The position numbers and the translations under genes were made by a program. A stretch of DNA of 64,000 nucleotides from Anaerolineales bacterium. Lineage in GTDB: Bacteria > Chloroflexota > Anaerolineae > Anaerolineales > Villigracilaceae. The stretch spans positions 1 to 64,000 of the forward strand of contig JACMLM010000056.1 in the NCBI GenBank assembly GCA_014379595.1. The letters are read 5' to 3'. Below, in pieces: positions 411 to 28,936 of this stretch; the first letter of the stretch is position 1, and each line of letters begins with the position of its first letter. The notes beneath the pieces are model-generated. The model did not search any database. It had not been told where the DNA came from and saw only the letters and a list, made by a program, of their open reading frames with translations.

Positions 411-453
411 CGAACCATAGCAAGACAAATCTAAAGAAAGGAGCGTGCTCGAA

Positions 454-531
454 ATGTTATTAAATGTAATCTTTATTCCAGATGCTGCTGGTAACTTACC
501 TTTTCGTAGTGCGCCTATAGACCATACCTAG
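454..531 (+). CDS. 25-aa leader peptide ORF, MLLNVIFIPDAAGNLPFRSAPIDHT
   Basis: AAAGGAG SD about 10 nt upstream of the ATG, intrinsic terminator directly downstream, ABC exporter operon next. Confidence 0.6.
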   Translation: MLLNVIFIPDAAGNLPFRSAPIDHT

Positions 532-557
532 GTCTTTCCAGTTCCTCGTTTTTTATG

Positions 558-588
558 GGCTGTGACGCACTCGTCACAGCCTTTTTTG
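558..588 (+). terminator. Intrinsic terminator/attenuator upstream of the ABC exporter operon
   Basis: GGCTGTGACG-CACT-CGTCACAGCC followed by TTTTTTG; lies between leader ORF and CDS at 618. Confidence 0.85.
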
Positions 589-24999: not shown

Positions 25000-26415
25000 T
25001 CAACTTATGTGATTCTTGATAAACTCCTCACCTTTCCCAATAAACTCATCATGATCATCGGGTGCGGCGGCAGAAGCCAATAGATCTTGTGTCTTCTCGC
25101 GCAATACTTGATGTGCAGGCAGCTCGCCAGCCTTTTGCCAATTCTCCATACTGTAATGCGGATACACATTGCTGACATAATATCCGTTTTTATAATTTCG
25201 CATGGTAGATGGTTGATTCAAAAAGTTCTTACCAGGCCCAACTTTATGTATCTCATCCAAGGCGGAATTCATATCGTCCAGCTGAAAACCGTTTTGGAAG
25301 CGAAGGGCCTGGTCAATGATCTCGTGGACATGAACAATCGTCGTTGGCGAGATGGACTTTGAGCCATGAGAATCTCCGATAAACGGAGCCAGGTGTCCGC
25401 TTGAGAGAAGAAGCGCGAGGGTGTTCATCCAATAGCTGTCTGCGGCGATCAAATCCATGCCCCAACCTGAACCGCTGCCTGATGTGGATGCGTGCGGAAT
25501 TCCATAGTGCTTCATCATTTCAGAACAAGCAACACTGATGAGGATGGTTTGCGGGTCATAAAAATTCAGCATGGTTCTCATATCAAAATAAACAGGTAAC
25601 ATACCCAATAAAATCTGTGCACCTTTTTTAATAGTTTGGCTAATCACAAGGCCTGCCAATAATTCTGCCATTAACAAAGTAAGTGTGCCTGCTGGCGTAA
25701 GCGGCGTTGACGCCCCTGCCATGCTGTAATTAGAAAAAATAATTGGCAAGCTGCGTTCGATGGATATTTTCATTTTATCCACGGTACCAGCATTCATCAC
25801 CAGCGGACTAACAGGGTTAAAATATGGAATGATAAACGGCTTATTTCCGAGGTCGCCGTGAAGCAGCTCGAACATTTGGATTACTTCAGGATATTTATTT
25901 TCGTCTGAAACCAGCAGGACCATAGGCTTGGTTGTGTTTGCAATATGTTCAAGCGAACCGTATAAATCTGTCATTTCCTCAGGCACATCACGAATGATGC
26001 CAACCGTGGAAACGACATCATAATGTTTTAGACTTGAACCGAGGCGAACAAGGTCTTGAAAATTTTTACGTTTGAAGATATCCAGTTTTTCATCAAAAGG
26101 ATTCTGATAGAACAACGCGGTAACCCCCACCCCAAAACGCAGGCGATCTTCACCAAGTTTAAATTTATATTCGCCGCGACGATCATAAATGTCAATTGTC
26201 TTCGGTGTCGATTTGATTGCATCTTCCACAACTTCAGGTGGAAATTTAATAATGCGATCCTGTGATTTCAGGCCAAGCTTCTGTTCAAGCATTTGCAAAA
26301 TCGCAGGCGAATCAACACGCACGCCAGTTTCGATTAATACTTTCAAAACATTATTATGAGCTTCCTGAATCTGCTCTTCAGTCATCATCGTCAATCGCGG
26401 GCGGACGTTGTTCAT
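25000..26415 (-). CDS. Trimethylamine methyltransferase (MttB) superfamily protein, no in-frame amber
   Basis: 471-aa uninterrupted frame; ETGVRVDSPAILQMLE, PVSPLVMNAGTVDKM, STSGSGSGWGMDLIAADSYWMNTLALLLSSGH. Confidence 0.82.
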   Translation of the reverse strand: MNNVRPRLTMMTEEQIQEAHNNVLKVLIETGVRVDSPAILQMLEQKLGLKSQDRIIKFPPEVVEDAIKSTPKTIDIYDRRGEYKFKLGEDRLRFGVGVTALFYQNPFDEKLDIFKRKNFQDLVRLGSSLKHYDVVSTVGIIRDVPEEMTDLYGSLEHIANTTKPMVLLVSDENKYPEVIQMFELLHGDLGNKPFIIPYFNPVSPLVMNAGTVDKMKISIERSLPIIFSNYSMAGASTPLTPAGTLTLLMAELLAGLVISQTIKKGAQILLGMLPVYFDMRTMLNFYDPQTILISVACSEMMKHYGIPHASTSGSGSGWGMDLIAADSYWMNTLALLLSSGHLAPFIGDSHGSKSISPTTIVHVHEIIDQALRFQNGFQLDDMNSALDEIHKVGPGKNFLNQPSTMRNYKNGYYVSNVYPHYSMENWQKAGELPAHQVLREKTQDLLASAAAPDDHDEFIGKGEEFIKNHIS

Positions 26416-26468
26416 AGGATCGATCTCCTCGAATGCAATTTTACAGGATTAACACATCCAGCAGATTC

Positions 26469-26532
26469 AGACTTCGGAAGTCTTTAACAAGACGCGCCAG
26501 TCGAGGTGCATGATGGCAGACTTCCGAAGTCT
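26469..26532. repeat. Pair of inverted palindromes (REP-like)
   Basis: AGACTTCGGAAGTCT (26469-26483) and AGACTTCCGAAGTCT (26518-26532), each self-palindromic and mutually inverted. Confidence 0.65.
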
Positions 26533-26537
26533 CACTC

Positions 26538-27569
26538 TTACATTTTTTTTTGCTTTTCCCAAATTTTGCGATCTTCAGGTTTTTCAGAGTCCAAGTATTT
26601 AGGGTCAACTTCTTTGATGATCTTGTGCCCATGTGATGCCCATAGATCAGATGCAATTTTGTATGCATCACACTCCACGCCTTGTGTCGAAAAATACTGA
26701 CAAATGCGGGTTACATCGCGCAGGAAGATACTCCATGATGCAGGATTCGATTCAGGGATCACCACCTGTGGAAAATCGATCAGGGTGATATCGCCTTCCC
26801 AATACAAAATATTATAGGCAGAAAGGTCGCCGTGAATGCGTCCATGAGCAAGCATGATGTCGATGTTGAGCATCACATGTTTGAAGAGCGGTTCAGCTTC
26901 GTCAATGTCCAAAGTTATGGAACTAAGCGCGGGAGCAGCAGTTGCATAGTCACCGACAAAGCCCATTAGGATCGCATTCTTTTCCATTGCATAAGGCTTG
27001 GGCACATCTGCGCCCGCCTCATACAACAATTCAAGCGTACTGAATTCATATGCGATCCAGGATTGATGGCGCAGACCTTCTCCATACTTCGAGCGCTTCT
27101 GCATGGCATAAATATCATCTGCTTTCACGATGGCATTCCCCTCTTCGTTCAAGTCTGTACGACCTTCACGATATTGACCATCATTCTTGAGATTACGAAG
27201 TGACCGCGGGCGATACACTTTGGCAGCGACAAAAGGCGCATCCACCGCAACCCCGGGCTTGCATTGGTAAACTGATGCTTCTTTTCCACCTTTGACTCGT
27301 TTCAAAACATCCACGATCCATTTGTGTTCGTAGAAATCGCCAAGCGAGTCAAGCAGCCACCATTCTTCGAAGCGGGCGGCTTTATAAGTGAATTTGAAAT
27401 TACTGCGCGAGTCATCCTGCTTGGAGAGGAACTGAAGATCTGCCTCGGGCACCTTCTTGGGGTTACGCGGAGGAAAACGCTCGCGGCGCTTGTCAGATTG
27501 TATAAAGTTATTTGTTTGTTCGTTATCGTCTAATTCATTAAAGAAATCGATGTAGTTGTTAGCATCCAT
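26538..27569 (-). CDS. RIO-type serine kinase-like protein
   Basis: GKEASVYQC nucleotide loop, VAAKVYRPRSLRNLKNDGQYREGR, HGDLSAYNILYWEGDITLIDFPQ catalytic/metal loops. Start MDANN. Confidence 0.85.
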   Translation of the reverse strand: MDANNYIDFFNELDDNEQTNNFIQSDKRRERFPPRNPKKVPEADLQFLSKQDDSRSNFKFTYKAARFEEWWLLDSLGDFYEHKWIVDVLKRVKGGKEASVYQCKPGVAVDAPFVAAKVYRPRSLRNLKNDGQYREGRTDLNEEGNAIVKADDIYAMQKRSKYGEGLRHQSWIAYEFSTLELLYEAGADVPKPYAMEKNAILMGFVGDYATAAPALSSITLDIDEAEPLFKHVMLNIDIMLAHGRIHGDLSAYNILYWEGDITLIDFPQVVIPESNPASWSIFLRDVTRICQYFSTQGVECDAYKIASDLWASHGHKIIKEVDPKYLDSEKPEDRKIWEKQKKM

Positions 27570-27630
27570 TGTTGTTGCCTTATTAAATAAAAAACCACAG
27601 GAAACGACCTCCCGCGGCAAGGATTAAATC

Positions 27631-27660
27631 AAAAACCGCAGGGCGAGACGCGCCTGCGGT
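27631..27660 (-). terminator. Intrinsic terminator/attenuator upstream of the RIO-type kinase
   Basis: Minus strand ACCGCAGG-CGCGTCTCGC-CCTGCGGTTTTT; lies between leader ORF 2 and the kinase start. Confidence 0.85.
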
Positions 27661-27701
27661 TGAATGTAAATTTTACAATTGGGCGACCATAAAGGTCATC
27701 C

Positions 27702-27764
27702 CTACATATCAATTGCAAGAGGCGCGCTTAAAACAAATTGGTTGGATAACAAGATGGCTTTCAT
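27702..27764 (-). CDS. 20-aa leader peptide ORF, MKAILLSNQFVLSAPLAIDM
   Basis: AAGGAGG SD 7-9 nt upstream of ATG, terminator downstream, then kinase gene. Confidence 0.65.
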   Translation of the reverse strand: MKAILLSNQFVLSAPLAIDM

Positions 27765-27804
27765 TAAGTCGTACCTCCTTTTGTAGTTGAATAACAATAA
27801 CGTG

Positions 27805-27833
27805 ATTTTATGTGACTCACCTGTGAATGTCAA
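27805..27833 (-). promoter_or_regulatory. Sigma70-like promoter for leader ORF 2 (TTGACA-N17-TAAAAT)
   Basis: Minus strand TTGACA (27833-27828), 17-nt spacer, TAAAAT (27810-27805). Confidence 0.75.
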
Positions 27834-28936
27834 GGATTTGGCCTGACGTGTTTATCAAAGAATTGTGCAGAACGCGCCATGAATACGAACCATGGGTCGC
27901 CTATGAAGGAATGGCCTTCATCTTTTTGAGGAAATATCTCAGCATCTTTGCCTGCCTCGATGAAAGCATCGTACATTTTTATTGACCACTGCGGAGGCGT
28001 GCCCGCATAGGTCAGCCCGTCTTTGGTGCCGTATGCAATTTGGACAGGAGCCGTCACAAGGTCTACATGATACAGCGGAGAAACTGCTTTGAGCATTTCA
28101 GAATCAGTTGAGGCTTTAAAGTAGGATTCGATCAAATCATTTGGCAAATCTACAGGGATGACATCCGAAGAATTACATCCAAATGCATTTTCACCATCAA
28201 ATACATCACCAAGACAACCTGTACCCCAACGACCGATGATGTCACCAAAATCAGCACTGACCGATGAATATAAAACAGCAGCTTTGATGCGAGAGTCGAG
28301 AGTCAACACTTTTACTGTTACTCCCCCACCCATGCTATGACCCCACATGCCGATGTGATCTGTATCGGCTTCTGGAACAGATGGAAGGGCATTCATCAAA
28401 TTGATGACATCAATTGCGAGACCGGAGTAAAACAAACTTTCGCCTGTTTCAGCATCGCCCCAGGTACGATAATCTGATGAGACCGTTAGATAGCCGCGGC
28501 GATTTAGAAATTCGGCAGCGCGATCAGTGCCATCTCCTGAACTGAAAATTGTTCGCGAAAAGAAACCATGATTCATCACAATGACGGGGTAAGGCGGCTC
28601 ACCAACCGTTGGCACCTGCAAAATACCGGTAATGGTCAGGCCGTCACTTGGGTACTCGATAAGATAACGCGTGAAATTATTTGTTTCAAGCAGTGTTTCG
28701 CGAATCTTAATAATGCCGCTTTCAAATTCGTGTTCACGCAAACCATCAATCGTATATGGATAAATCGCTTCTTTCATCGTTTGCGTTGCAGTAGGAAGCG
28801 GCGTATTCGTAGGTGTACGCGTAGCGGGAATAATCGTCACACTTGGAGTTGGCAGACTCTGCGTTGAATTTCGGACGCAAGCCGAAAATATAAAGACCAG
28901 TAAGAATAAAGTGTATCGAAAGTTATTTTTCATCAT
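27830..28936 (-). CDS. Alpha/beta-hydrolase (dienelactone hydrolase-like) lipoprotein
   Basis: Lipobox IFSACV; MWGHSMGGG nucleophile elbow; QKDEGHSF. Confidence 0.85.
   Translation of the reverse strand: MMKNNFRYTLFLLVFIFSACVRNSTQSLPTPSVTIIPATRTPTNTPLPTATQTMKEAIYPYTIDGLREHEFESGIIKIRETLLETNNFTRYLIEYPSDGLTITGILQVPTVGEPPYPVIVMNHGFFSRTIFSSGDGTDRAAEFLNRRGYLTVSSDYRTWGDAETGESLFYSGLAIDVINLMNALPSVPEADTDHIGMWGHSMGGGVTVKVLTLDSRIKAAVLYSSVSADFGDIIGRWGTGCLGDVFDGENAFGCNSSDVIPVDLPNDLIESYFKASTDSEMLKAVSPLYHVDLVTAPVQIAYGTKDGLTYAGTPPQWSIKMYDAFIEAGKDAEIFPQKDEGHSFIGDPWFVFMARSAQFFDKHVRPNP

Follow-up and report, generated by a model that had tools for sequence, protein, structure and literature searches.

Does the gene for a RIO-type protein kinase in an Anaerolineales bacterium lie behind a leader that reads the state of the ribosome? 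In the window (the whole stretch of DNA that was analysed, 64,000 nucleotides), a short open reading frame (ORF) and a terminator lie between a promoter and the kinase start codon. The first-pass annotation had proposed that pairing between a segment of this ORF and the 5' arm of the terminator would be mutually exclusive with the terminator. The evidence set out below makes it probable that the leader is a ribosome-mediated transcription attenuator, in which the competing pairings share one segment (the hub) and a ribosome held at the start is the ON condition.

Elements of the leader and its target gene

The kinase gene (26538..27569, minus strand, ATG at 27569) encodes a RIO1-type protein kinase of 343 aa, with intact catalytic motifs HGDLSAYN and DFPQ. 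The RIO-type identity given in the first-pass annotation holds: the protein matched Pfam RIO1 (E 9e-33) and archaeal/eukaryotic Rio1 structures (best E 4e-18) and has the HGD..N and DFP/G motifs. Its best NCBIfam match, the PA4780 family, was below the cut-off (137 vs 350 bits). The kinase is followed by an MttB-like methyltransferase gene (25000..26415, minus strand); such a gene adjoined the RIO kinase in 32 of the 45 kinase loci examined, and the gene order suggests that the two are possibly co-transcribed. The gap between them (26415-26538, minus strand) contains two 15-nt copies, AGACTTCGGAAGTCT and AGACTTCCGAAGTCT, which are mutual reverse complements and could fold into a long hairpin; a U tract is absent.

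The promoter of the leader transcript, TTGACA-17-TAAAAT (27805..27833, minus strand, as are all leader coordinates that follow; 11/12 matches), ranked best among 43 sigma-70-like sites when the surrounding 20 kb were scanned, and a promoter-like site (≥9/12) was present at most 90 nt upstream of the Shine-Dalgarno sequence (SD) in 58 of 82 class-A leaders. Element 1 is the leader SD itself, AAGGAGG (27774..27780), identified by its sequence and by its covariation with the hub, to which it would pair as an anti-antiterminator. The 20-codon ORF MKAILLSNQFVLSAPLAIDM and its stop codon span 27702..27764 (ATG at 27764, TAG at 27704-27702) and contain element 2, the hub GCGCGCCTC (27719..27727), whose core GCGCCTCC can pair either with the SD or with the 5' arm of the terminator T1. 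A small hairpin, GACC-TTTAT-GGTC (27681..27703, arms at 27697-27685), is located at or just after the stop codon, in the loop between hub and T1; only part of the family has such a hairpin, with differing stems. T1 (27660-27631) is formed by element 3, the 5' arm ACCGCAGGCGCG (27649..27660), and element 4, the 3' arm CCTGCGGT (27635..27642), followed by a U tract to 27631. A second terminator, T2 (27618-27594), consists of element 5, the 5' arm CCGCGGGA (27610..27617), which complements the T1 3' arm with one bulge, and element 6, the 3' arm TCCTGTGG (27595..27602), followed by a six-U run.

The promoter, SD, 20-codon ORF, hairpin, terminator and kinase ATG were thus all found where the first-pass annotation had placed them on the minus strand, and the complementarity of CGCGCCT (27726-27720) to AGGCGCG (27655-27649) was verified in the sequence. 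T2, the hub:SD pairing, the conservation in relatives and the MttB-like gene after the kinase are additions to that description.

Conservation and covariation of the competing helices

At this locus alone, the 7-bp match between hub and terminator was only weakly surprising: dinucleotide-shuffled ORFs contained a Watson-Crick run of at least 7 in 2.5% of cases, and a run of at least 8 with G-U pairs allowed in 13%. The reality of the hub:T1 pairing was settled by comparative evidence rather than by the single-locus match.

The genomes in the comparison were mostly MAGs. A RIO kinase match was obtained in 35 of 61 related genomes, and the leader was present at all of the 27 RIO-kinase loci with enough upstream DNA (30 loci in the first set), spanning several Anaerolineales families. 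It lies directly before the kinase in most of the 27; in four (L004, L008, L012, L017) one small SnoaL/NTF2-like gene is found between leader and kinase. Absence from orthologous loci, the check that had been proposed for a leader-controlled kinase, was observed once: the 27 testable loci all have the leader, and of three distant orthologues, at 42-49% identity and from other families, two are preceded by leader-like sequence, but no leader was found upstream of the kinase in the third (G039). Of the two distant carriers, G046 has a strong SD:hub and a weak hub:T1 match, and G049, by our reading, has a hub-like segment just past the stop codon.

Among the 27 RIO leaders, pairing between the hub and the T1 5' arm reached 92%, far above slid controls, and at three pairs both partners had changed. 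The SD:hub helix was 98.6% paired, and so was the T1 stem, which is followed by a U tract. In the window leader the SD:hub pairing was also seen in the minimum-energy fold (whole-leader z -3.2). When 67 distinct class-A leaders, belonging to several target genes, were compared, hub, SD and T1 arm co-varied, as in the SD/hub/T1 sets GGAGGC/GCGCCTCC/AGGCGC, GGAGGTA/GTACCTCC/AGGTGC and GGAGATA/GTATCTCC/AGGTAC. With phylogenetic relatedness left in, the observed score was reached in 0 of 5000 permutations for either helix, and in 0 and 4 of 5000 after identical cores were collapsed. In the distant leader L079, which stood outside the permutation test, we read hub and T1 arm as jointly changed, to AGCCTCCTG/CAGGAGGCT. 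The proposal that hub:T1 pairing and the terminator exclude each other is borne out by the 92% pairing and the compensatory changes on both sides, and an ORF-coupled terminator/antiterminator before the RIO kinase is supported by the 27 orthologous loci together with the covarying helices. Three mutually exclusive pairings around one common hub would probably constitute a new three-way attenuator design.

For a genome-wide scan, a three-part DNA pattern was searched in 85,462 species genomes and gave 54 matches, of which 49 were leader ORFs in Chloroflexota. Where the contig extended far enough, the gene after these leaders was a RIO kinase or an ABC-2 operon, sometimes past a SnoaL-like gene. 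The non-Chloroflexota matches (L118, L119, L138, L139, L149) were rejected as chance, having neither a leader ORF nor a related gene. The cultured Levilinea saccharolytica KIBI-1 carries the leader (L111) on a contig that stops short of the gene, and in Levilinea sp. (L126) the kinase is downstream. A covariance model matched 16 of 399 Chloroflexota genomes, all of the order Anaerolineales. Rfam, at gathering and relaxed thresholds, gave no match in the window, the leader region or seven representative loci. Weak R1 matches in G000:C16 were discarded as plain palindromic terminators occurring on both strands, and L090-L092 and L096 were left out of the leader counts owing to low scores.

A recognisable T2 with the same stem sequence follows T1 in 29 class-A leaders. 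Pairing of the T1 3' arm with the T2 5' arm beat the mirror pair (T1 5' arm with T2 3' arm) in 35 of 43 leaders (26/29 class-A, 9/14 class-B), and in leaders lacking a recognised T2, a complement of the T1 3' arm was found downstream in 29 of 52 (p≤0.05), compared with 8 of 52 for the control arm. The presence of this complement after T1 suggests a relay, and a relay with 2:3 and 4:5 paired in the ON state is plausible from these sequences. Element 5 is made only once the outcome at T1 has been decided, and it is present also where T2 is absent, which counts against the explanation that we prefer. In the ABC-2 operon leaders (L070, L074, L131, L140 and similar), which have no T2, a segment (A/G)CCNNNGGGC just past the U tract complements the T1 3' arm.

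Ribosome position and alternative explanations

The effect of the ribosome was modelled by footprint folding of 80 leaders, with the RNA ended just past the T1 5' arm and a ribosome placed codon by codon; footprint size and equilibrium folding are simplifications, and equilibrium is a poor proxy for co-transcriptional kinetics. When the ribosome was absent, the probability of SD:hub was 0.75 and that of the antiterminator 0.20. The antiterminator probability was 0.85-0.86 with the ribosome at codons 1-2 (0.86 at codon 1), 0.70 at codon 3, 0.19-0.39 at codons 4-8 and about 0 at codons 10-19. Scrambling the hub abolished both the SD:hub and the antiterminator effects, and class-B leaders followed the same trend more weakly. 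Since the hub also sequesters the leader SD, the ribosome-free default is predicted to be OFF, and the model predicts ON only with a ribosome held at the first codons. The window's own leader departs from the family mean: without a ribosome, and ended before the T1 3' arm, it gave an antiterminator probability of 0.87, so that a default OFF state is less evident for it than for the average member of the family; on this model, its OFF state may lean more on rapid translation. In full-length RNA at equilibrium T1 always won (0.99); the switch must therefore be kinetic, like other attenuators.

The attenuator would operate as follows. In the absence of a ribosome, the hub would fold onto the leader SD, T1 would form and transcription would stop. 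A ribosome translating normally would advance over the hub (codons 13-15); the T1 5' arm would again be left unpaired by the hub, and T1 would form. A ribosome held at the start or in the first few codons would cover the SD and free the hub, which would capture the T1 5' arm and let RNA polymerase read into the RIO kinase gene and possibly its MttB-like neighbour. Less certainly, the freed T1 3' arm would then capture the T2 5' arm by the relay, so that T2 would be disarmed too. The likely signal is a hindrance to ribosomes at initiation or while the first peptide bonds form; antibiotics that stall ribosomes at the start, or faults in the ribosomes themselves, are examples of possible causes. 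What happens in the cell is what we infer: termination and readthrough, the nature of the signal, the operation of the relay and what the kinase is for. The earlier suggestion of a ribosome-sensing switch, with RIO biology as its reason, would describe it in the same conditional sense.

The ORF itself bears on the choice between explanations. SD, start, frame and stop are conserved at the sequence level, and the SD is strong in every leader. Of 75 leaders, 72 have the hub in the reading frame of the ATG, and in 73 the ORF runs through the hub with no stop codon; the distance from ATG to hub ranges from 33 to 48 nt, with differences that are almost always whole codons. Codons 2-12 had a pN/pS of 0.90, as in a nearly unconstrained peptide, and the hub codons are conserved; in contrast, a peptide-type leader before an ABC-F gene of the same genus had a pN/pS of 0.49. 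Judged by these sequences, the leader ORF would act as a ruler rather than a message.

The main rival is an arrest peptide: the nascent peptide would be the sensor and would stall the ribosome through a RAPP-like motif, the conserved A-P(-P) encoded by the hub. RAPP-like motifs near the C-termini of small uORFs do arrest ribosomes (PMC10951233, PMC10987492, PMC12992588), all three leader classes encode Ala-Pro in the same frame, and the class C leader described below has a conserved peptide. However, arrest requires a matching N-terminal sequence (PMC10987492), codons 2-12 look neutral in class A, and the hub-encoded residues differ among class-A leaders (SAPP, CVPP, RVPP, SAPL, NAPS, DVPL, CVSP) in step with the needs of the RNA helix, as would not be seen in a RAPP-like motif constrained as peptide. 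Ala-Pro-Pro occurs at the hub, and varies there, because RNA pairing dictates those codons. In footprint folding, moreover, a ribosome stalled at A-P-P would occupy the hub and favour termination. As peptide constraint is lacking, RAPP-like arrest is disfavoured for class A, and we consider it unlikely.

The remaining alternatives have less in their favour. A riboswitch or protein-binding leader with an incidental ORF would suit the strongly structured RNA (z -3.2), but it would not account for the kept hub frame, the whole-codon changes in spacing or the universally strong SD; an aptamer-like conserved core was not found, the Rfam result was likewise negative, and this reading is very unlikely. 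The strength of T1 and the frequent T2 behind it could point to a constitutive double terminator that insulates the kinase from upstream transcription, with the pairings as by-products; the leader's own promoter, its constant-frame ORF and the fact that the antiterminator and SD pairings covary and persist in front of unrelated target genes make that highly improbable. Attenuation by amino-acid starvation (trp/his type, which depends on regulatory codons of the leader) shares the 1:2, 2:3, 3:4 hairpin logic, yet a run of regulatory codons is absent, no codon before the hub is conserved and the target genes are not biosynthetic; we regard it as the least probable of these explanations. The start-held-ribosome attenuator is the reading used below.

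The wider leader family and known attenuators

Leaders of related build are found upstream of an ABC-2 transporter operon, ABC exporters, a second RIO kinase and M24-type aminopeptidases, and one (L080) precedes an MFS transporter. The targets of class B (hub CGNAGTGCGCCT) are ABC exporters of two families and operons for GNAT acetyltransferases; 62 occurrences of the class B pattern were counted among the matches listed, in 61 genomes, all of the window's genus, and a reversed-pattern control gave a handful. Class C is a leaderless type with a conserved peptide, located before a ribosomal-protection-like ABC-F gene, and is a good candidate, from its sequence, for a drug-sensing arrest peptide. 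It consists of TATAAT-N6-ATG, 31 codons with the conserved peptide MIYxFxAGKSPLIIGVRGFI...IAPVR, and a terminator; the ABC-F gene (L206-L222; own genome G000:C53:14084-15697) matched NF000355 above the cut-off.

At least seven units of this kind were counted in the genome to which the window belongs. The one that the first-pass annotation implied as the first, by calling the kinase leader the second, is a class B leader, MLLNVIFIPDAAGNLPFRSAPIDHT with hub CGTAGTGCGCCT (438..580, plus strand), before an ABC exporter (618-2465). A near-identical leader and gene start are found at the end of contig C66 (G000:C66:69016-69094, L204), which points either to a duplication of this unit or to an assembly break within a repeat at that place. 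In the same genome, class A leader L065 (G000:C58:35011-35161) precedes a second RIO kinase, which matched APH weakly (E 2.6e-8), and class A leader L066 (G000:C22:54040-54182) precedes an ABC exporter.

Because the units belong to a family with several other targets, the finding is not kinase-specific. Judged by gene family, a set of targets that combines exporters and acetyltransferases with a possible ribosome-protection factor would fit a response to antibiotics or translation stress. A wider reading, tentative and on balance doubtful, is an order-wide Anaerolineales RNA regulon in which SD-hub-terminator switches before many genes (RIO kinases, ABC-2 and ABC exporters, GNAT, M24 peptidase) report initiation-stuck ribosomes, the relay disarms the tandem terminator (ON, 2:3 + 4:5; OFF, 1:2 + 3:4 + 5:6) and the RIO1-type kinase is a translation-stress or antibiotic-response factor. 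Such a regulon would mark out candidate genes for an antibiotic response among bacteria that are abundant yet uncultured; Levilinea saccharolytica is a carrier available in culture. The leaders constitute a candidate RNA switch family that is absent from Rfam and would tie a bacterial RIO1-type kinase to the state of the ribosome; the open-access literature searched contained neither a bacterial RIO kinase under leader control nor a Chloroflexota leader peptide or ribosome-mediated attenuator.

In the enterobacterial trp attenuator, the alternative hairpins 1:2, 2:3 and 3:4 are selected by the position of the ribosome. The Anaerolineales leader differs in having no regulatory codons, in using the SD itself as strand 1 and in requiring, for ON, a ribosome at the start rather than in mid-ORF.

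The closest working analogue is the leader of vmlR, an ABC-F resistance gene of Bacillus subtilis: its 3-codon uORF lies inside an anti-antiterminator that is disrupted by initiation-stalled ribosomes, and stalling by lincosamides or pleuromutilins lets the antiterminator beat the intrinsic terminator (PMC9226507). The Anaerolineales leader instead has a 20-codon ORF that holds the hub, which pairs directly with the SD; it also differs in phylum, targets and sequence, and has a tandem terminator with the same stem. Ribosome-targeting antibiotics induce the multidrug ABC transporter BmrCD of B. subtilis via the translated leader ORF bmrB (PMC4191407). A leader ORF, alternative stem-loops and an intrinsic terminator are common to both systems, but in bmrB the terminator is part of the coding sequence of the leader, whereas T1 follows the stop codon and its hub is shared with the SD. 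Rfam gave no homology to a catalogued leader, and the comparison with vmlR and bmrB was made by published descriptions. The Escherichia coli uORF toiL of topAI senses several antibiotic classes, start-codon stalling by tetracycline and retapamulin being among its signals (PMC12121999); it controls topAI translation and Rho-dependent termination, whereas the Anaerolineales leader uses intrinsic terminators. The RAPP-like arrest peptides ApdA/ApdP and the RQH family (PMC10951233, PMC10987492) likewise have short uORFs with Ala-Pro-Pro near the C-terminus, but in the Anaerolineales leader RNA pairing accounts for the APP codons, and conservation of the peptide is absent.

The design would thus be a ruler that reads start-codon-parked ribosomes and is built from the leader's own SD, and the relay, if real, would be a new way to chain two intrinsic terminators. 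What sets it apart from vmlR, bmrCD and toiL is the SD as strand 1, the hub inside a ruler ORF, the tandem terminator, the phylum and the targets.
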